Assembly (NCBI GenBank): GCA_945902805.1 | Contig: CAMDMZ010000021.1 | Coordinates: 1-64,000 of the forward strand | DNA: 64,000 nt | Direction: 5' to 3' | Origin: Propionivibrio dicarboxylicus | Lineage (GTDB): Bacteria; Pseudomonadota; Gammaproteobacteria; Burkholderiales; Rhodocyclaceae | Shown here: one piece after another, positions 24,857-52,909 of the stretch | How the letters are laid out: every line of letters starts with the position of its first letter | Numbering within the stretch: the stretch's first letter is position 1 | Notes under the pieces: model-generated | Told to the model about the DNA's origin: nothing | The model's database searches: none | Seen by the model: only the letters and a program-made list of their open reading frames with translations | Made by a program: the position numbers and the translations under genes

Positions 24857-25075
24857 CTAGCGCGTCGATGGGACTGACGGCGCCACGTCGCGCTCTGCGG
24901 CAAGCCAGGACAAAAAGGCTGTCACTTTCGGCGCCCCCATGTCGCGCGGATGCCTCATGCCGCTAATGCGGACAAAAGCCCGAACCCAATAGACATATGT
25001 TGCCTCTGTGCGTATGCTGTAGTGCTTGCAACGAATGCGTTCTCGAATCTGGTCAAGTAACTTAGTCGCCTGCAA
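24857..25075 (-). pseudogene. Truncated integron integrase (IntI N-terminal fragment)
   Basis: About 72 codons from a possible TTG at 25075. [20 protein letters not shown] and [20 protein letters not shown] then [12 protein letters not shown] match the SAM-like N-terminal domain of integron integrases and related tyrosine recombinases. The match ends at about 24890 ([11 protein letters not shown]), and the catalytic domain with R-H-R-Y is absent, so the gene was cut by a deletion ending beside the radical SAM gene. The ORF track starts further up at 25141, but that part overlaps the LexA-like box. Confidence 0.75.
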
Positions 25076-25121
25076 TACCGGCCGAACAGCGGCCTTGCAG
25101 GGTTTGTGGATGGATTTGATA

Positions 25122-25137
25122 CTGTGCATGTACACAT
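25122..25137. promoter_or_regulatory. LexA-like box upstream of intI remnant
   Basis: CTGTGCATGTACACAT fits CTGT-N8-ACAG with one mismatch and has a perfect TACTGT half-site. LexA boxes control intI in many integrons, so position supports the call; binding is inferred. Confidence 0.45.
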
Positions 25138-25253
25138 GCATATCACCTACTCCATTGATTGCAAGGAGAATTCAAGTGACGTGTTGTCTCGGTTATACAG
25201 CAAGCCCTTGCCGAAACCCTGCAATTTCGCTGTTCAATTGACGTAGCCCTCAT

Positions 25254-26102
25254 ATGACATCCGCGACTATCAAACTCTTTCTCCCGCACGGCGACGCAAA
25301 GCGGTTGCGCGTTGGCGAAGTCTCAAACTGGACGGGCAAGGCGTTGGCTGCTCCGCGAACGGAACTAGACGACCTCCTTCTCCGTGAAGAAGCAGAGAGC
25401 GCCGGGGTCTACTTCCTCTTCGGCTCAGACCCCGAGAGCGGGGACGCCTTGGCTTACATTGGGGAAGCTGAAGTAATTCGCGACCGCCTGAAACAGCACA
25501 AGGCCAAAGATTTCTGGAACGCCGTGGTCGTTTTCGTCAGCAAAGACGAAAACCTCACCAAGGCACATATTCGGTACCTTGAGAACCGCCTGTTGCACGA
25601 AGCAAAGCAGGCTGGTCGCTACCGCCTTGAGAATTCCAACACCAGCAATCCCAAACTACCCGAGTCTGACCGCGAAGACATGGAGGTATTCCTATCTCGC
25701 ATTCAGTAAGTTCTGCCTGTGCTCGGCTCCGACCTGCTAACCCCGGTTTCCGGCTCCACCAAGACCGCCAAGCCGCAGAAAGAACTTCTGTGCAAGAACA
25801 AAGGGGCGGTTGCTCGCGGTCGGCGTACTGAGGGTGGGTTCGTCGTATTCAAAGACTCCACTGCCGTGGTTGCGGAACGATCTTCCGCCGGAACACAGCA
25901 TCCGTATGTTGTCGCGCTTCGCAAGAAGCTTGTCCAAGACAGAACGCTCGTAGAAAGCGAAGGTTTCTTCGTATTCACGAAGGACACCGAGTTTGACAGT
26001 CCGAGTGCCGCAGCCGCTGTAATTCATGGAGGGGGAGCTAATGGCCTCACCGCTTGGAAAGATGCTAATGGCAAATCGCTCAAGGAACTCGAAGAGGGCT
26101 AA
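25254..26102 (+). pseudogene. GIY-YIG nuclease + DUF4357 gene with in-frame ochre stop
   Basis: The ORFs 25254-25709 and 25719-26102 are in one frame, split by TAA at 25707-25709 (ATT CAG TAA GTT CTG CCT). The first part has the GIY-YIG core (GVYFLFG ... LAYIGEAEVIRDRLKQH). The second part is a DUF4357 domain (GGFVVFKDSTA ... FTKDTEFDSPSAAAAVIHGG ... NGLTAWKD). These two domains occur fused in known GIY-YIG proteins, and VLPVLGSDLL just after the stop is part of their normal linker. Thus one protein of about 282 codons has been inactivated by a nonsense change. Possible start ATG 25254. Family role is DNA cleavage/repair, not established here. Confidence 0.8.
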
Positions 26103-26126
26103 CACTTCATCCCACCGGACGTTAGC
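26098..26126. other. attC-like site (shortened), cassette boundary 1
   Basis: Inverted cores GCTAAC (26098-26103) and GTTAGC (26121-26126), only 17 bases apart, right at the stop of the nuclease pseudogene. The outer cores fit R''/R' of an attC, but the interior is far shorter than normal (57 bp or more). Confidence 0.4.
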
Positions 26127-26208
26127 TGTTAAGAGCCGTCATGGCATATGAGCCGAAAATTCAAGCTGAGTCGTTACCTCCACGTTGGGCCTCACAAATA
26201 GCGCCCGA

Positions 26209-26236
26209 TTGACGGGCGTACGTATTAGCGTACCAT
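26209..26236 (+). promoter_or_regulatory. Promoter/operator candidate of the toxin-antitoxin pair
   Basis: TTGACG (26209-26214), 16-base spacer and TACCAT (26231-26236). The spacer holds the inverted repeat GTACG-N6-CGTAC (26218-26233), well placed for autorepression by the antitoxin. Confidence 0.45.
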
Positions 26237-26261
26237 TGTAGCTTCTTTGAAGGAGCACGAA

Positions 26262-26504
26262 ATGAACACGCTTACCGCCAGCGAAGCTCGCGCAAACCTT
26301 TACCGACTCATTGACCAAACAGTTGAGTCTCATGAGCCCATCCTCATTTCCGGAAAACGCAGTAGTGCCGTGCTGCTCTCTGCGGAAGATTGGAGCGCAA
26401 TTCAAGAAACCCTGTACCTACTGGTCGTACCTGGCATGCGGGAGTCCATCAAAGCGGGCATGGCCGAGCCGCTCGAAAAAAGCTCGAAAGCGCTTAAGTG
26501 GTGA
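26262..26504 (+). CDS. yefM: YefM-type antitoxin (Phd/YefM family)
   Basis: 80-aa antitoxin expected to bind its operator and neutralise the adjacent YoeB-like RNase. MNTLTASEARANLYRLIDQT and ILISGKRSSAVLLSAEDWSAIQETLYLL closely follow the YefM pattern (DNA-binding N-terminal half, toxin-binding C-terminal half). I chose ATG 26262 over the upstream TTG because GAAGGAG sits seven bases before it. Its stop overlaps the toxin GTG. Likely carried as an integron cassette. Confidence 0.92.
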   Translation: MNTLTASEARANLYRLIDQTVESHEPILISGKRSSAVLLSAEDWSAIQETLYLLVVPGMRESIKAGMAEPLEKSSKALKW

Positions 26505-26764
26505 GTTGGGAAATTGTTTATGCCCGCCAGGCAATGAAGGACGCAAAGAAGCTCGCTGCAACGGGTCTTAAGCCAAAGGCACTAGAGCTGCTGGCGGTTC
26601 TTTCCCATGACCCGTTTCAAAATCCTCCGCCCTTCGAAAAGTTGGTTGGTGATCTTGCTGGCGCCTACTCGCGACGCATCAATATTCAGCACCGTATGGT
26701 CTATGAGGTTTTTACCAAAGAGAAAACGGTTCGCGTCTTGCGCATGTGGACCCACTATGACTGA
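26501..26764 (+). CDS. yoeB: Txe/YoeB family toxin
   Basis: 87-aa ribosome-dependent mRNA interferase of the RelE superfamily. SWEIVYARQAMKDAKKL at the start, NPPPFEKLVGDLAGAYSRRINIQHRMVYEV in two parts, and the conserved end VRVLRMWTHYD containing the catalytic His/Tyr region. GTG 26501 overlaps the antitoxin TGA (GTGA); GTG 26498 is an alternative. The reading frame is intact, unlike its cassette neighbour. Confidence 0.92.
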   Translation: MSWEIVYARQAMKDAKKLAATGLKPKALELLAVLSHDPFQNPPPFEKLVGDLAGAYSRRINIQHRMVYEVFTKEKTVRVLRMWTHYD

Positions 26765-26790
26765 GATGAAGCCCATCAAAGCGTCGTGCT

Positions 26791-26857
26791 GCGTAAATCA
26801 GCGGACGCCTTGCCGTGACGCTGATGTCCGCCCCTTCGATCGAGAGGAACGTTAGCC
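26791..26857. other. attC-like site (degenerate), cassette boundary 2
   Basis: 67 bases after the toxin gene. It contains nested inverted repeats CAGCG/CGCTG and GCGGAC/GTCCGC and ends in AACGTTAGCC (R'-like core GTTAGCC at 26851). The left core (GCGTAAA) fits R'' poorly. Length is within the normal attC range. Confidence 0.4.
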
Positions 26858-26928
26858 CTCAAACCCAATGGCCATGCGCTACCAAGGTCCTATCCGCTCC
26901 CGGAATTAGCTGCGACAGACGAAATTCC

Positions 26929-26954
26929 CGCCGTCCCACCAGCACCGACTTTTT
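26929..26954 (+). repeat. Dispersed repeat, copy 6
   Basis: CGCCGTCCCACCAGCACCGA then CTTTTT, between the attC-like site and the SRPBCC gene. The gene's ribosome site (TTAGGAG) starts two bases after it. Confidence 0.85.
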
Positions 26955-26970
26955 ATTAGGAGAATCGTAA

Positions 26971-27417
26971 ATGTCCACAGGTATTGTGCAACTGCATCGT
27001 GTATTTCGCGCGCCTCCCGAGCGTGTGTATCATGCGTTTCTGGACGCCGACGCCATGGCAAAGTGGTTACCGCCCTACGGCTTCACCTGCAAGGTTCACC
27101 ACATGGATGCCAAGGTCGGCGGTACCTTTCGGATGACGTTCACTAATTTCACATCAGCAAGCGGCCATTCGTTTGGAGGTGAGTATCTTGAATTGGTGCC
27201 TCACGAGCGTATTCGCTACGCCGACAAATTCGACGACCCGAACTTGCCTGGAGTTATGCAGGTGACGATAGCGTTGACCAAGGTATCCTGCGGCACTGAG
27301 ATCAACATCGTGCAAGACGGGATTCCGGAAGTCATTCCGCTTGAAATGTGCTACCTCGGCTGGCAGGAGTCTCTTGCGCAACTTGCCACGCTCGTCGAGC
27401 CCGAGATTGCGGGTTAG
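26971..27417 (+). CDS. SRPBCC (AHSA1-like) family protein
   Basis: 148-aa protein of the START/Bet v1-like fold (activator of Hsp90 ATPase homolog group). RVFRAPPERVYHAFLDADAMAKWLPPYG opens the domain in family fashion and DAKVGGTFRMTF follows. Such proteins bind hydrophobic ligands; the ligand here is unknown. Good ribosome site (AGGAG, eight bases before the ATG). Probably accessory DNA, next to the integron remnant. Confidence 0.85.
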   Translation: MSTGIVQLHRVFRAPPERVYHAFLDADAMAKWLPPYGFTCKVHHMDAKVGGTFRMTFTNFTSASGHSFGGEYLELVPHERIRYADKFDDPNLPGVMQVTIALTKVSCGTEINIVQDGIPEVIPLEMCYLGWQESLAQLATLVEPEIAG

Positions 27418-27485
27418 CAAGATGACACGCAACCCGGCAGTCAGCCGTTCCTGAGCTAAACGCCGCGCCGCACCGGTTACCGCCT

Positions 27486-27938
27486 ATGCCAGCTTTGTAC
27501 ACGATCATTCCCGCACGCGAAACGGATGCCGCAGAGATCGCCCTTCTTTCGGTTGAACTCGGGTATCAAACAACAATTGATCAAACTCACGCGTCCCTCA
27601 AACAGATGTTGAGTTCGCCCAACTACGTTGCCGTTGTTGCTTCCACCGCAGCCGGGCGGCTGCTTGGCTGGGCCGTGGCCGAGCGCCGTTTAACGTTGGA
27701 GTCTGGCGAATCCGTGGAACTGACCGGTCTGGTCGTCACAACCGCTGCGCGGCGCGTAGGCGTCGGAAGGGCGCTGGTAGCATCAGCCGAACATTGGGCA
27801 CTTCAACATGGATTTAGCTCGATCCGGGTACGATCCAACATTACACGAACGGAGTCGCATCGCTTCTATGAGCGCCTTGGCTTCGAGCCAACCAAGACGC
27901 AACATGTATACAAAAAATCCTTGTCTCCTGCAGCCTAA
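27486..27938 (+). CDS. GNAT family N-acetyltransferase
   Basis: 150-aa acetyl-CoA-dependent acetyltransferase. Residues 85-105 carry the acetyl-CoA loop VTTAARRVGVGRALVASAE (motif A, here RRVGVGRAL), and NITRTESHRFYERLGFEPTK is the usual C-terminal motif B. Substrate unknown. Stand-alone gene among small accessory genes; its context does not reveal a target. Confidence 0.88.
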   Translation: MPALYTIIPARETDAAEIALLSVELGYQTTIDQTHASLKQMLSSPNYVAVVASTAAGRLLGWAVAERRLTLESGESVELTGLVVTTAARRVGVGRALVASAEHWALQHGFSSIRVRSNITRTESHRFYERLGFEPTKTQHVYKKSLSPAA

Positions 27939-27962
27939 CCAGCGCACAGTCCACAGCCGACC

Positions 27963-28370
27963 ATGACAACACCAACCAAACGCGTCACACCGGCCGCCGG
28001 CAAGCGAGCATCCCCGCGCAAGGATGTCGCTGATTCGCCGCCCGCGCCATTTATGCGCTTTCATCACTCGCAGAAGCTCCGCGACAAGACTCTGGATGTG
28101 CTCGGTATCATCGAAAGTGCTGACGAGGCGACGGCCCATTCAGGTCTGCTGACCGAATTGGTGCTGGAACTGACCGACAGCGGGCTGGATGAGTTCTTCC
28201 TCCAATCGCTGAAGGCGACGAAAGCGAATTTCCTCGTTCAACAGTCTGCCACGCTGGGTTTAGCGGGGGTACAGAAAGTGATGGGCACGGTCACGCGAAA
28301 CATTATCGGGCGCATGGATGATCGCCAGTTGCTTTCGGTCTGTAGTTCTATCCGCCGCTTTATGGTGTGA
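27963..28370 (+). CDS. Conserved hypothetical protein
   Basis: 135 aa, not recognised. A basic, Pro/Ala-rich N-terminal 30 residues (TTPTKRVTPAAGKRASPRK) precede a mostly helical body (LLTELVLELTDSGLDEFFLQS ... IGRMDDRQLLSVCSSIRRFM). No signal peptide or membrane segment. Starts 24 bases after the GNAT gene. Codon use matches the genome, so it is probably a real gene. Confidence 0.6.
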   Translation: MTTPTKRVTPAAGKRASPRKDVADSPPAPFMRFHHSQKLRDKTLDVLGIIESADEATAHSGLLTELVLELTDSGLDEFFLQSLKATKANFLVQQSATLGLAGVQKVMGTVTRNIIGRMDDRQLLSVCSSIRRFMV

Positions 28371-43623: not shown

Positions 43624-45807
43624 ATGACTAAGCGCGACTTGACCTTTTTGCGCGTGAACTACCTGCGCGGCCCCAATATCTGGACCTATCGACCGGTAAT
43701 CGAAGCCTGGGTCGATATCGGCGAATTCGAACAGCAACCGTCGAACACCTTGCCCGGTTTCAACGAACGCCTGATTGCCCTGCTGCCCGGGCTTGATAAG
43801 CATCGCTGCGGCGTAGGCGAGCCGGGCGGCTTCATCCTGCGTTTGCGCGAGGGCACCTGGCTCGGCCATGTGCTGGAGCACGTGACCATCGAATTGCAGA
43901 ACCTGGCCGGTAGCCAGGTCGGATTCGGCAAGGCGCGGCAAACGGCGGAAGGCAGCGGTATTTACAAGGTCGCCGTGCGAACGCGCGACGAGAGAGTCGG
44001 ACGCGCGGCGATAGCTATTGGCCGCGAACTGATCCTGGCGGCGGTGGACGATCGCCCGTTCGATCTGGCCAAAAATGTCGCCGAGTTGCGCGATCTGGTC
44101 GATCGCCATTGTCTCGGGCCGAGCACGGCGTGCATCGTCGATGCGGCGGGCGAACGCAAGATTCCGTCGATCCGGCTGAATGACGGCAACCTGGTGCAGC
44201 TCGGGTATGGCGTCAAGCAGCGCCGCATCTGGACGGCAGAGACCGATCGCACCTCGGCGATCGCCGAAGGTATTTCACGCGACAAGGATTTGACCAAGTC
44301 GTTGCTGGCATCCTGCGGCGTCCCTGTACCCGGCGGGCAGATCGTCAAAACGGCGGCCGAGGCATGGGACGCGGCCGAAGACATCGGACTGCCGGTGGTG
44401 GTCAAGCCGGTTGACGGCAATCACGGGCGCGGCGTGTCGCTGGAGCTGATCAATCGCCAAGAGGTGGAAGCCGCCTTCGCCCTGGCCGAAAAGGAAGGCA
44501 GCGAGGTTATTGTCGAAAGCTTCATCAAGGGCAATGAACACCGCTTGCTGGTGGTCGGTGGCAAGGTCGTGGCCGCGGCGCACGGCGAGATTGCGGCGGT
44601 GACGGGCGATGGCCGTTCGACCGTGCTGGGACTGATCGATGCCCAGATCAATAGCGATCCACGACGTGGACTGACGGAAGACTTTCCGCTCAATCGGGTG
44701 ACCGTCAGTGAAGATCCTGCGGTCGGGCTCGAACTGGAGCGCCAGGGCTACACGCCGAAATCGGTGCCTGTCGCCGGCGCACGGGTGCTGATCCAGCGCA
44801 ATGGAAATGTCGCCTCCGATTGCACGGACCAGGTTTGCCCTGAGGTGGAGGCCATTGCGGCGCTGGCCGCGCGCGTGGTTGGACTCGATATTGCTGGTGT
44901 CGATGTGGTGGCCGAGGATATATCGCGACCGCTGGAAAGCCAGGGCGGCGCGATTGTCGAGGTCAATGCCGGTCCGGGCCTGCTCATGCACCTGAAACCG
45001 GCGAGCGGCCAGCCGCGTCCGGTCGGGGAGGCGATCGCCCGTGAACTGTTTCCTGTCGGCGAAACCGGACGCATTCCGGTGGTCGGCATCAGTGGCTTGC
45101 GCGGTACGACCCAGATCGCCCGTCTGACAGCGTGGATAGCACAATTGGCTGGCCGTCATGTCGGACTCGCCTGTGCCGATGGCCTGTTTGTCGGTCATCG
45201 CTGTATTGGCAAGCGCGACCCGATCGGCTTTGACGGCGCACAGTCGATTCTGATGAACCGGACCGTCGATACGGTGGTGATTCAGAGCGCGGCTCGCGGC
45301 ATCCTGAGCGATGGCTTGTCCTATGATCGCTGCCAGGTTGGCGTGGTGACGGATGTCAGCGGCGCGGCCGAGCTTGGTGAGTTTTATCTGAGCGACGATG
45401 ACCAGGTATTCAATGTGTTGCGTACCCAGGTGGACGTGGTTTTGCCGGATGGCATGGCCGTGCTCAATGCTGCCGATGCGCGCGTGGTCGAGATGGCTGA
45501 GCTGTGCGATGGCGACGTGATCTTCTACGCCGAGACGGGCGATCAGCCGGTCATCGTCAAACATCGCACCGATGGCGGTCGTGCGGTATTCGAGCGCCAC
45601 GGGCGGATAGTGCTGGCGACTGGCGATAGCGAGACTTTGCTGCGCGCCCTGACGGCACAGGCACCGGGCAGCCCGCACGTGCTTGAGAATCTGCTGGCGG
45701 CCGCTGCAGCGGCCTGGGCGCTTGGTATCGTGCCCGAGCTGATCGGTGCCGGCATCCAAACCTTTGAGGACAGTCTGGCCGCAACGGCCCTGGCTGCTGC
45801 CTCCTGA
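43624..45807 (+). CDS. Cyanophycin synthetase-like protein CphA' (short form)
   Basis: 727-aa homologue of CphA with the same order: N-terminal CphA domain (VNYLRGPNIWTYRPVIEAW), ATP-grasp (VVVKPVDGNHGRGVSLEL, about residue 258), and Mur-ligase-like domain. It differs in two ways. The Mur P-loop is GISGLRGTTQIARL (about residue 486) where CphA has GTNGKTTT, so the ATP-binding lysine is lost. It also ends about 125 residues early and lacks the DYGHNPDAM segment. It probably cannot add arginine by the usual Mur-type reaction, but may add aspartate or act as a CphA partner. Twenty bases separate it from cphA. Confidence 0.9.
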   Translation: MTKRDLTFLRVNYLRGPNIWTYRPVIEAWVDIGEFEQQPSNTLPGFNERLIALLPGLDKHRCGVGEPGGFILRLREGTWLGHVLEHVTIELQNLAGSQVGFGKARQTAEGSGIYKVAVRTRDERVGRAAIAIGRELILAAVDDRPFDLAKNVAELRDLVDRHCLGPSTACIVDAAGERKIPSIRLNDGNLVQLGYGVKQRRIWTAETDRTSAIAEGISRDKDLTKSLLASCGVPVPGGQIVKTAAEAWDAAEDIGLPVVVKPVDGNHGRGVSLELINRQEVEAAFALAEKEGSEVIVESFIKGNEHRLLVVGGKVVAAAHGEIAAVTGDGRSTVLGLIDAQINSDPRRGLTEDFPLNRVTVSEDPAVGLELERQGYTPKSVPVAGARVLIQRNGNVASDCTDQVCPEVEAIAALAARVVGLDIAGVDVVAEDISRPLESQGGAIVEVNAGPGLLMHLKPASGQPRPVGEAIARELFPVGETGRIPVVGISGLRGTTQIARLTAWIAQLAGRHVGLACADGLFVGHRCIGKRDPIGFDGAQSILMNRTVDTVVIQSAARGILSDGLSYDRCQVGVVTDVSGAAELGEFYLSDDDQVFNVLRTQVDVVLPDGMAVLNAADARVVEMAELCDGDVIFYAETGDQPVIVKHRTDGGRAVFERHGRIVLATGDSETLLRALTAQAPGSPHVLENLLAAAAAAWALGIVPELIGAGIQTFEDSLAATALAAAS

Positions 45808-45827
45808 ATCTGACAGGAATTACGTCC

Positions 45828-48395
45828 ATGGAAGTTTCCCGCATCCGGGCATTGCGCGGCCCCAACCTGTGGAGTCGCCAGACCTCGATCGAAGCCATTG
45901 TCAAATGCGTGGCGACCGATTGCAACATTGCTGCGAATGTCGGCCTGGAAGCGCGGCTTCGCGAGCGCTTTCCCGGCCTTGGCCAGTTGCAGCCGAAAGG
46001 GCAGAACGAACCGATGTCGCTGGCGCATGTGATCGCTGCGGCGACATTGAATCTGCAGGTACAGGCTGGCTGCTCGGTCACCTTTTCGCGCACCCAGCGG
46101 ACGCTTGAAAAGGGCGTGTATCAGGTAGTGATCCAGTATTCCGAAGAGGAAGTCGGGCGTCTGGCATTCGATATGGCACAAGAACTGATTGCCGCAGCAA
46201 TGAACGATCAGCCATTCGATGCGGCGGCAGCCATCGCGACATTGCACGAACTTGACGCCGACGTACGCCTTGGCCCATCGACCGGCGCCATCGTCGATGC
46301 CGCAGTGGCACACGGCATTCCCTATCGCCGCCTGACTTCGGGCAGTCTGGTGCAGTTTGGCTGGGGCTCGAAGCAGCGCCGCATCCAGGCCGCCGAAGTG
46401 GATTCAACCAGCGCGATTGCCGAATCTATCGCCCAGGACAAGGACCTGACCAAACGCCTTCTGGCCGCGGCCGGCGTGCCGGTGCCCTACGGTCGGCCGG
46501 TGGATGATGTCGAGGATGCCCTCGCTGCCGCCGAGGAAATCGGCTGGCCGGTGGTGGTCAAGCCGCAAGACGGCAACCAGGGCAAGGGCGTGACGTCGAA
46601 TGTGGTGAGCGAGGAACATTTGCGCACCGTGTATCAGGTGGCCTTGCAGTACAGCGACAACATCCTCGTCGAAAAATACCTGCCGGGCCACGATTTCCGC
46701 TTGTTGGTCGTGGGCGACAAGCTGGTGGCTGCGGCGCGGCGCGATGCACCGCATGTGGTCGGCGACGGCGTGCATACGATTCGCGAACTGGTGGCCGAGG
46801 TGAACAAGGATCCTCGTCGCGGCGATGGTCATGCCACGCCGATGTCGTGGATGCGGATCGACGAGATCGCCATTGCGCGCCTCAAGCTGCACAATTTCAC
46901 GCCGGAATCGATCCCGCCCATGGGCACCCGCGTGATGATGCGTAACAACGCCAATCTTTCCACGGGTGGCACGGCGACCGATGTGACCGACGAAGTGCAT
47001 CCAGATGTGGCAGCGCGTGCCGTGGATGCCGCCTTGACCATCGGTCTCGATATTTGCGGTGTCGATGTGGTGTGCGACAGCGTGGGGCGTCCACTTGAAG
47101 AGCAAAGTGGCGGCATCGTCGAAGTCAATGCCGCACCGGGCTTGCGCATGCACATCTTCCCTTCCTACGGCAAAGGCCGTGCGGTCGGCGAGGCGGTGGT
47201 GGCAACGCTGTACCCGAATGGCGACAACGGGCGCATTCCCGTCATCGCCGTCACCGGCACCAACGGCAAGACGACCACCGTGCGGGTGATCTCGCATCTG
47301 CTGGCAACCAGCGGCTTGCGGGTCGGCATGACCAATACCGATGGCGTGTACATCGGCAAGCGTCAGATCGATAGCGGTGATTGCTCGGGACCGAAGAGCG
47401 CGCGCAATGTGTTGATGAATCCGGATGTCGATGCCGCCGTGTTCGAAACCGCGCGTGGCGGCTTGCTGCGCGAGGGCCTGGCGTTTGATCAGTGCCAGGT
47501 GGCGGTGGTCACCAATCTCGGGCTGGGTGATCACCTCGGTCTCAACTACATCACCACGGTCGATGATCTCGCCGTCTTGAAGCGCGTGATTGTGCAGAAC
47601 GTGGCCAGCGATGGCTACGCCGTTCTCAATGCCGCCGATCCGGTGGTGGTGGCGATGGCGCCGAAATGTACTGGTCATGTTTGTTTCTTTACAGCTGATC
47701 GCGGCTTGCCGATCATGGCCGCGCATCGCGCCCAGGGCCAGCGCGTGGTGTATGTGGCCGACAATGCCATCGTCGCCGAGCAGGGCAGTTTCATCGAGCG
47801 CATTCCCCTGTCCGCGGTACCGATCACCCACAACGGCACGATCGGCTTCCAGGTCGATAACGTAATGGCCGCTGTGGGGGCCGCCTGGTCCGTGGGACTG
47901 GACTGGGACATCATCCGGCGCGGACTGGCTACATTCAATGCCGACCTCGACAACGCGCCGGGACGCTTCAACGTTTTCGATTATCGAGGTGCAACCTTGA
48001 TTGCCGATTACGGCCACAACCCGGATGCCATGGCGGCGCTGGTGGGTGCCGTGAATGCCATGCCGGCAAAGCGCCGCCTGGTCGTCATCAGCGGTGCCGG
48101 CGACCGGCGCGACGAGGACATCCGCCAGCAGACGCAGATCCTCGGCGGTGCCTTCGATGAGGTCCTGCTTTATCAGGACGCCTGTCAACGTGGTCGCGCC
48201 GATGGCGAGGTGCTGGGGCTGTTGCGCGAAGGTCTGACAAATGCGTTTCGGGCCAAGATCGTGGAAGAAATCCACGGTGAGTTCATTGCCATCGATACCG
48301 CGCTGGCCAAATTAAAGCCGGGTGACCTGTGCCTCATCCTGATTGATCAGGTGGAGGAAGCGCTGGCGCATATTGCCAAGCGGGTGGCGGGCTGA
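45828..48395 (+). CDS. cphA: Cyanophycin synthetase
   Basis: Polymerises L-aspartate and L-arginine into multi-L-arginyl-poly-L-aspartate, a nitrogen store in cytoplasmic granules. 855 aa. N-terminal domain (SRIRALRGPNLWSRQTSIEA), ATP-grasp aspartate-adding part (GWPVVVKPQDGNQGKGVTS, about residue 240), then Mur-ligase arginine-adding domain with intact P-loop VTGTNGKTTTVRVI (about 477) and the LIADYGHNPDAMAAL segment (about 725). Arranged cphA'-cphA as in many proteobacteria. Arginine could come from the pathway that includes ArgJ in this window. No cyanophycinase is seen. Confidence 0.96.
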   Translation: MEVSRIRALRGPNLWSRQTSIEAIVKCVATDCNIAANVGLEARLRERFPGLGQLQPKGQNEPMSLAHVIAAATLNLQVQAGCSVTFSRTQRTLEKGVYQVVIQYSEEEVGRLAFDMAQELIAAAMNDQPFDAAAAIATLHELDADVRLGPSTGAIVDAAVAHGIPYRRLTSGSLVQFGWGSKQRRIQAAEVDSTSAIAESIAQDKDLTKRLLAAAGVPVPYGRPVDDVEDALAAAEEIGWPVVVKPQDGNQGKGVTSNVVSEEHLRTVYQVALQYSDNILVEKYLPGHDFRLLVVGDKLVAAARRDAPHVVGDGVHTIRELVAEVNKDPRRGDGHATPMSWMRIDEIAIARLKLHNFTPESIPPMGTRVMMRNNANLSTGGTATDVTDEVHPDVAARAVDAALTIGLDICGVDVVCDSVGRPLEEQSGGIVEVNAAPGLRMHIFPSYGKGRAVGEAVVATLYPNGDNGRIPVIAVTGTNGKTTTVRVISHLLATSGLRVGMTNTDGVYIGKRQIDSGDCSGPKSARNVLMNPDVDAAVFETARGGLLREGLAFDQCQVAVVTNLGLGDHLGLNYITTVDDLAVLKRVIVQNVASDGYAVLNAADPVVVAMAPKCTGHVCFFTADRGLPIMAAHRAQGQRVVYVADNAIVAEQGSFIERIPLSAVPITHNGTIGFQVDNVMAAVGAAWSVGLDWDIIRRGLATFNADLDNAPGRFNVFDYRGATLIADYGHNPDAMAALVGAVNAMPAKRRLVVISGAGDRRDEDIRQQTQILGGAFDEVLLYQDACQRGRADGEVLGLLREGLTNAFRAKIVEEIHGEFIAIDTALAKLKPGDLCLILIDQVEEALAHIAKRVAG

Positions 48396-51117: not shown

Positions 51118-52077
51118 ATGCTCGATACCTTTTCCTTACTGTTGAAAACCGATTTCCCGGCCCTGCAACGGACCCGGCTGGATACCTTGCAGGCCAATCT
51201 GGGCTACCGCTGCAACCAGTCGTGCCTGCATTGTCATGTCGCGGCGAGTCCCAGGCGGACCGAAGAAATGTCATGGGAAGCCATGGAACTTCTATTGCAG
51301 TTTGTCCAGCGGCAAGGTGTTGCCACGCTCGATCTGACCGGTGGCGCACCGGAGCTCAACCCGCATTTTCGTCGTCTCGTACTGGCGGCCCGTGCTCAGG
51401 GATTGAAGGTCATGGATCGTTGTAACCTGACCATCCTGAATGAGCCGGGACAGGAAGGTCTGGCCAATTTTCTCGCGGAAAATGAGGTCGAAATTGTTGC
51501 CTCCATGCCCTGTTATCTTGAAGAGAACGTCAATCGGCAGCGAGGCGACGGCGTGTTCGAGTCGAGCCTCGCCGGCCTGCGCCAGCTAAATGCTCTGGGA
51601 TACGGCGTGACGGGCAGCGGCCGGGTGTTGAACTTGGTCTACAACCCCGCCGGCCCGAGCTTGCCACCTGATCAGGTCAAACTGGAGGTCGCCTACAAGG
51701 AGCAGTTGGCGAGCCGCTACGGCATCGTTTTCAACCAACTCTACGCCCTCGCCAATATGCCAATCCAGCGCTTTGGCAGCCAGCTTGTCGCAAACGACGG
51801 GTTTCACCACTACATGGGTTTGCTCAAGGCGGCGCACCGCGACGACAACCTGGCCGGCGTGATGTGCAAATCCCTGATCTCGGTCAACTGGCAGGGCTTC
51901 GTGTACGACTGCGACTTCAACCAGATGCTTGGCCTGCCCTTGGGCGAGGCGAGTGCTCCGGTGCCGCTGGCGGACTTGTTGGCAACTGAATTCGACGGTC
52001 TGCCCATTCGTGTCGCCGATCACTGCTATGGCTGCACGGCCGGGCAAGGAAGCAGTTGCGGGGGGGCGTTGGGTTAG
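51118..52077 (+). CDS. arsS: Arsenosugar biosynthesis-type radical SAM protein ArsS
   Basis: 319-aa radical SAM enzyme. The cluster motif CNQSCLHCHVAASPRR (CxxxCxxC, about residues 33-40) is followed by DLTGGAPELNPHFRRLV and the family C-terminal domain (DUF3641) with NPAGPSLPPDQVKLE and the cysteine-rich end HCYGCTAGQGSSCGGALG. ArsS is thought to attach the adenosyl moiety to dimethylarsenic in arsenosugar synthesis. All Cys positions at the tail are TGC codons, so it is not a selenoprotein here. I chose ATG 51118; the ORF track extension overlaps the ATPase gene. ArsM is absent from the window. Confidence 0.88.
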   Translation: MLDTFSLLLKTDFPALQRTRLDTLQANLGYRCNQSCLHCHVAASPRRTEEMSWEAMELLLQFVQRQGVATLDLTGGAPELNPHFRRLVLAARAQGLKVMDRCNLTILNEPGQEGLANFLAENEVEIVASMPCYLEENVNRQRGDGVFESSLAGLRQLNALGYGVTGSGRVLNLVYNPAGPSLPPDQVKLEVAYKEQLASRYGIVFNQLYALANMPIQRFGSQLVANDGFHHYMGLLKAAHRDDNLAGVMCKSLISVNWQGFVYDCDFNQMLGLPLGEASAPVPLADLLATEFDGLPIRVADHCYGCTAGQGSSCGGALG

Positions 52078-52157
52078 CATTCCGGCATGGCAGTGGTCGC
52101 CTGACTTCTTGTTGAGTGTCCCGTTACACTTTCGTCTCGTTATCCGAAGGAGAGTTC

Positions 52158-52841
52158 ATGTCCAATCAGATTCTTTCCGGCAAACGGGTGCTCATCACCC
52201 ACGCCGATGCGTTCATGGGGCCTGTCCTGTGTGAGGTGTTCACCAATCACGGTGCCACGGTGATTTCCAGTACTGATCCACTCATCGCTGCCGATGCGCC
52301 GGCTTCCATCATTGCCGACGCGGGGCAGGTTGATGTCCTCGTTGCCAATTTGGCGATACCGGCACCGAGCACTTCGGCCACGGAAGCGTCAGACGAAGAA
52401 TGGGACGATACCTTTGCTGCCCTGGTGAATCCCCTGCCTCGGTTGTTCCGCGCTGTCTTGCCAGCCATGATAGCGAGGCGTGCGGGCAAGATCCTCGTCA
52501 TGGGTAGCGCATCAGCATTGCGCGGGATGAAACGTGCCTCGACCTACAGCGCGGCACGTGGCGCCCAGCTTGCCTATGTGCAGGCGGTTGGCGTGGAGGT
52601 CGCTGCGCACAATGTTCAGGTGAATGCAATCGCGCAGAACTTCGTCGATAACCCGACCTACTTTCCGCCCGAAGTGCAGAGCAATCCAAAGTTTCAGGAG
52701 CGCCTGAAGCGTGAGGTTCCGCTGGGGCGCCTTGTTGGCGCGAAGGAAGACGCTGAATTTGCTGCCTACCTTTGCAGCGAAGCGGCGAACTGCTTTGTCG
52801 GGCAAGTGTTTCCGGTTTGCGGCGGCTGGGTGGTGCGATAG
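52158..52841 (+). CDS. Halohydrin dehalogenase-like short-chain protein
   Basis: 227 aa, SDR fold but with features of halohydrin dehalogenases (haloalcohol to epoxide plus halide, cofactor-free). The NAD loop is replaced by THADAFMG, matching T-x4-F/Y-x-G. The catalytic set is S-x12-Y-x3-R (GSASALRGMKRASTYSAARG), i.e. Arg instead of the SDR Lys. NFVDNPTYFPPEV and LKREVPLGRLV also match these enzymes, as does GQVFPVCGG near the end. Ribosome site GAAGGAGAG before ATG 52158. It sits between arsS and two glycosyltransferases, an unexpected context. Type (HheA-G) cannot be set by eye; substrate unknown. Confidence 0.83.
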   Translation: MSNQILSGKRVLITHADAFMGPVLCEVFTNHGATVISSTDPLIAADAPASIIADAGQVDVLVANLAIPAPSTSATEASDEEWDDTFAALVNPLPRLFRAVLPAMIARRAGKILVMGSASALRGMKRASTYSAARGAQLAYVQAVGVEVAAHNVQVNAIAQNFVDNPTYFPPEVQSNPKFQERLKREVPLGRLVGAKEDAEFAAYLCSEAANCFVGQVFPVCGGWVVR

Positions 52842-52854
52842 CGAACCGGGCAAT

Positions 52855-52877
52855 AAGTCGGTGCTGGCGGGACGGCG
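52855..52877 (-). repeat. Dispersed repeat, copy 10
   Basis: AAGTCGGTGCTGGCGGGACG then GCG on the plus strand, in the gap between the dehalogenase-like gene and the next glycosyltransferase. The A-tail is shortened to two. Confidence 0.82.
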
Positions 52878-52909
52878 CGTTTTTTCAATTGAACTCGGAA
52901 CTCTGAGTC

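Follow-up and report, generated by a model that had tools for sequence, protein, structure and literature searches.

Why should a gene with the marks of a halohydrin dehalogenase (HHDH) lie between arsS and two glycosyltransferase genes of the arsenosugar type, as one does in the 64,000-nucleotide stretch of a Propionivibrio dicarboxylicus contig (CAMDMZ010000021.1, positions 1 to 64,000; hereafter the window) analysed here? We propose that this gene, hheD, encodes a D-type HHDH which very probably arrived as an integron cassette at the junction of arsS and the TIGR04283 glycosyltransferase gene, subsequently lost its attC site, is now fixed, and is likely to serve in stand-alone detoxification. 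The arsenosugar location looks accidental, because the closest relatives of the gene are mobile integron cassettes and the window copy bears a cassette scar. The enzyme belongs to a known family; the surprise is the cassette vehicle, not the arsenosugar setting.

Family placement of the hheD product

The hheD gene is an intact open reading frame of 227 codons (52158-52841, plus strand; 227 aa) with an ATG start, immediately preceded by the Shine-Dalgarno sequence AAGGAGAG. An in-frame GTG at 52116 provides a longer alternative start, and the ATG at 52158 is preferred because of its good Shine-Dalgarno sequence and its agreement with the relatives. The two motifs used to mine the HHDH family, T-x4-F-x-G and S-x12-Y-x3-R (Schallmey 2014, quoted in PMC4989007), are both complete in the product, as the original prediction had held: THADAFMG at residue 14 (T14-x4-F19-x-G21) supplies the T-x4-[FY]-x-G motif that replaces the NAD loop, and S117, Y130 and R134 form the catalytic set. 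All six residues are invariant among 32 homologues. Two close homologues, L029 (THADAFMA) and L104 (THAGHFIA), carry alanine for the glycine of the first motif, and a strict motif filter would therefore miss both.

The best PDB sequence matches of the product, aligned end to end, are 7B73 (1.3e-99), which is HheD2 (PMC9629495), and 8XXB (3.1e-94), a triple mutant of HheD8 with chloride, at 69% and 67% identity, respectively. HheB comes third (2.1e-53), followed by a long tail of NAD-dependent SDRs and other HHDHs; the two D-type enzymes outscore every NAD-dependent SDR by a wide margin. An AlphaFold2 model (mean pLDDT 82, with residues 120-125 and 215-227 poor) gives the same order of fold matches, with HheD2 first and then HheD8 and HheB. 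The window enzyme thus resembles HheD2 and HheD8 in full-length alignment, in both family motifs and as best fold matches; it differs from them in being encoded between arsS and the TIGR04283 gene and in having a cassette-type leader.

Could the product nevertheless be an ordinary NAD(P)-dependent SDR in which both motifs occur by chance? Pfam and NCBIfam label it only as SDR or FabG-like, with all NCBIfam matches below their cut-offs. However, a search for the SDR glycine motif TGxxx[AG]xG in the product found none, arginine stands where SDRs have their catalytic lysine, and the identity to two structurally solved HHDHs is high. In addition, in a maximum-likelihood tree (built without HheE, HheF and HheG sequences, and used only in its upper part because the deep branches are long and the bootstrap had not settled), the NAD-dependent SDRs of the same genome separate from hheD with support of 99/91, and the product groups with the verified D-type enzymes. 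A chance SDR is thus highly improbable, and the profile and tree check that accompanied the claim of an HHDH came out in favour of that claim. As judged by these comparisons, hheD encodes an ordinary D-type halohydrin dehalogenase with predicted catalysis. Between hheD and its cassette relatives (see below), dN is 0.07-0.09 and dS is 0.86-1.57, and we therefore consider the gene to be kept under purifying selection. The accompanying notion that such enzymes are rare did not hold up, since a single scan of species-representative genomes returned at least 509 relatives.

Related genes also occur in viral data, where six IMG/VR contigs (L219-L224) contain a D-type HHDH homologue of 52-63% identity. 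The one at L222:4983-5669 is surrounded by genes for a tail sheath, a head-tail adaptor and a dNMP kinase and is, as read from the contig, phage-borne; its first motif is TQANDMMG, with methionine for Phe/Tyr, and its S-x12-Y-x3-R motif is intact.

The mechanism is family knowledge (PMC4989007), applied here by homology. Tyr130, activated by Arg134, would deprotonate the hydroxyl of a vicinal haloalcohol to give the epoxide, with Ser117 holding the substrate oxygen, and the halide would exit into a pocket around the Thr14-Phe19-Gly21 loop that takes the place of the NAD loop. In the reverse reaction, small anions would open the epoxide. It is in this sense that we infer both the catalytic activity and the physiological substrate of the product.

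The arsenosugar setting

The neighbours of hheD are what they had been taken to be, as all three score above their NCBIfam cut-offs, which is also how the window resembles other ArsS/TIGR04283/TIGR04282 clusters. Upstream is arsS, encoding the arsenosugar biosynthesis radical SAM protein (51118-52077, plus strand; TIGR04167, 437.8 bits against a cut-off of 300), and downstream are two glycosyltransferase genes of arsenosugar clusters, TIGR04283 (52910-53629, plus strand; 269.2 bits, cut-off 182) and TIGR04282 (53610-54263, plus strand, start uncertain; 183.3 bits when scanned from 53649, cut-off 134). The four genes run on one strand in the order arsS-hheD-TIGR04283-TIGR04282. Elsewhere in the order, in contrast, such clusters occur without hheD inside them.

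One option is that the enzyme works in the arsenosugar pathway, opening or forming an epoxide on an intermediate or aglycone, and that this is why it sits in the arsS operon. In keeping with this, hheD is co-directional with arsS and the TIGR04283 gene, with gaps of only 80 bp and 68 bp. The linkage is nevertheless not conserved. None of ArsS, TIGR04283 and TIGR04282 was found near hheD in the best 80 of the at least 509 related loci (71-89% identity, with flanks of up to 10 kb per side; 65 loci offered 1 kb or more on both sides and 44 offered 5 kb or more), a search that recovered the window locus as its positive control, and ArsS and the glycosyltransferases were likewise not found near hheD at 20 further loci from the same order. 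ArsS is not shown in 31 of 50 hheD-bearing genomes, and its presence in the other 19 of this wider set is not significantly above the rate of the order. Conversely, hheD is missing from most arsS clusters. In two genomes of the order (G450 and G667), arsS and the TIGR04283 gene are adjacent without hheD, separated by 23 bp and 1 bp, and the junction can therefore exist without it; both of these genomes belong to other families of the order, and in the same family the arsenosugar cluster is arranged in another gene order.

The pathway option draws further support from genome-level co-occurrence of hheD and ArsS across the order (21/26 against 97/372, p=3e-8), which is weaker but still present when stratified by family (one-sided p=0.003). 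Against this, leaving out a single family reduces the stratified result to p=0.09, and the hheD genes of that family belong to a divergent clade. The co-occurring genes are far apart or on separate contigs in the genomes of the order. This unlinked co-occurrence in one order leaves a residual signal that is in part without explanation. Since the linkage is unique to the window locus, we do not take a functional link to arsS as the default, and a role in the arsenosugar pathway is very unlikely. The meaning that the original prediction had implied for this setting is accordingly not upheld: linkage was found in 0 of 100 other hheD loci, many hheD genomes show no ArsS, and the flanks point instead to an integron cassette. 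A literature search, which did not extend to most subscription journals, found no paper linking HHDHs and arsenosugars.

A conserved neighbourhood of another, non-arsenic kind was considered as well and rejected, with none apparent in 97 loci and the commonest neighbour family present in only 9. As a separate observation, another contig of the source genome encodes an ArsM-like arsenite methyltransferase of 346 aa (L192:1153-2193, G000:C16; best match 171 bits, cut-off 263).

Integron cassettes among the nearest relatives

When upstream sequences were anchored at the start codon, attC-like flanks were first seen in the nearest relatives of hheD. We detected attC sites with two covariance models, the first built from eight sites, six of which came from loci that were later scored, and the second from 49 matches; L012, L021, L011, L013, L025, L029 and L037 were outside the first model. 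Nine loci among the best 80 of the at least 509 have an attC directly beside hheD. The site begins 10-14 bp past the stop codon in L011, L013, L015, L025, L027, L029 and L037 and ends about 40 bp 5' of the start in L014, L015 and L018, with weak scores in L011 (E 0.06) and L029 (E 0.32). Arrays of sites are present at four loci. In L015, from Propionivibrio, hheD is flanked by attC on both sides inside a run of four sites; in L014 (Gammaproteobacteria) it is part of an array with roughly ten sites; in L021 (Alphaproteobacteria) it follows the last of 13 sites by about 400 bp; and in L012 a broken integrase is followed by five sites, with hheD 3 kb beyond. Without exception, these flanking and array sites have the orientation of hheD. 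No attC match better than E=0.22 was found in sixty control loci (364 kb).

A loose pattern scan for attC across the whole hheD family showed no excess over shuffled sequences, and the cassette state is therefore true of only part of the family; many hheD genes elsewhere are located outside integrons. An integron integrase is found in 32 of 50 hheD genomes, and for the order as a whole the figure is 151 of 399 (p=7e-4, in a comparison not matched for taxonomy), and a plasmid search for hheD returned a single distant match. In the literature searched (again without most subscription journals), no publication turned up that describes HHDH genes as integron cassettes.

The window copy as a probable former cassette

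The window hheD falls in one clade (support 96/91) with six genes that adjoin an attC and with a single gene from an Acidobacteriota MAG. Its leader (52111-52157, plus strand) is of cassette type. From -47 to -15 it is 76% identical to the leaders of both L018 and L015, 67% to that of L019 and 64% to that of L017, a similarity for which 0 of 200,000 random 33-mers reached even 60%, and identity falls to background 5' of -48. The first seven bases of the leader, GTTGAGT (52111-52117), conform to the attC core GTTRRRY. Homology to the cassette copies stops at this core, and the edge at -47 has the same spacing to the start codon that real attC cores show in L018 and L015. Neither covariance model found an attC near the window gene. 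Directly after hheD, a pattern scan identified a terminator-like hairpin with a T run (52861-52888, plus strand), which may instead be a decayed attC remnant and which we grade as weak because the region has six such sites against 3.0 expected. Because the search for its own attC came back empty, the window hheD is cassette-derived and not a cassette. The source genome is a 129-contig assembly and may contain an assembly error at the hheD locus.

Integron remains lie 24 kb upstream on the same contig. A 94-aa open reading frame (24857-25141, minus strand) encodes an N-terminal integron integrase fragment, matching positions 1-63 of TIGR02249 with 62.4 bits (below cut-off) and also PF13495. It is followed by a region that, by Pfam, its attC match and our reading of the sequence, is a decayed cassette array (25254-28370, plus strand), with small ORFs that resemble those of cassette arrays (DUF4357, a Phd/YoeB pair, AHSA1 and GNAT) and a weak attC-like sequence at 26097-26127 (E 0.031), the best attC match in the window. 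The integrases of the source genome are only fragments below cut-off, this one among them; of 12 other genomes of the family, 8 gave a match to an apparently intact integrase.

Origin of the locus

In light of these findings, how might hheD have come to lie beside arsS? The DNA that moved would extend from the attC core at 52111 through hheD; this cassette would have inserted at the arsS-TIGR04283 junction, and its attC would have been lost after insertion, a loss by which hheD became a fixed, cassette-derived gene. Cassettes inserted at secondary sites with spoiled attC have been documented (PMC1382264, PMC10127599). Like integron cassettes, the window hheD is a single promoter-poor gene with a homology block that starts at an attC core and with relatives in real attC arrays; unlike them, it has lost its attC, and the nearby integrase is fragmentary. 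The family membership, the cassette state of the nearest relatives, the shared clade, the leader homology and its boundary, the missing attC and the non-conserved linkage to arsS are direct observations. Insertion driven by an integrase and transcription together with arsS are presumed. The points against are the missing attC at the window gene, the overlap between training and scored loci in the first attC model, the weak scores of L011 and L029, the lack of a family-wide attC excess, the occurrence of hheD-free junctions only in other families of the order, and the fragmented assembly.

Alternatively, a D-type HHDH gene may have been brought in through ordinary recombination or on a different mobile element, in which case the similarity of the leaders would reflect only a conserved regulatory region of hheD. 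The failure to find either an attC at the gene or an intact integrase in the source genome is compatible with this, as are the many hheD genes outside integrons. The leader match, however, stops at the exact position of the attC core in L018 and L015 and is confined to the cassette clade, and integron remains are present on the same contig. We thus regard transfer by another element as unlikely and retain arrival as a cassette. A more far-reaching version of events, in which environmental integrons repeatedly carry D-type HHDHs and this strain has also co-opted hheD into the arsS operon, bringing haloalcohol or epoxide chemistry into organoarsenic metabolism, seems to us very unlikely indeed.

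Possible role and significance

The presumed role of the HHDH family is the detoxification or degradation of haloalcohols (PMC11536340). Only two known HHDH genes adjoin an epoxide hydrolase gene, and other functions are possible (PMC4989007). For the window enzyme, stand-alone detoxification of haloalcohols or epoxides is the most likely job; a self-contained function suits a gene that travels alone. Its neighbours tell of the landing site and perhaps of transcription, and not of function, and the arsenosugar link thereby ceases to be a clue to what hheD does. Should cassettes carry part of the D-type family, its scattered distribution and the absence of conserved neighbours would be accounted for; this would also hint at a self-contained role that is useful now and then, detoxification for example, and cassette arrays would become a hunting ground for new HHDHs.

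Elsewhere in the window, and apart from hheD, two adjacent large ORFs (43624-48395) of 727 and 855 aa are paralogous, with 43% identity over 663 residues, and probably encode cyanophycin synthetases. Genes on the compared loci were called with a codon-scored caller.
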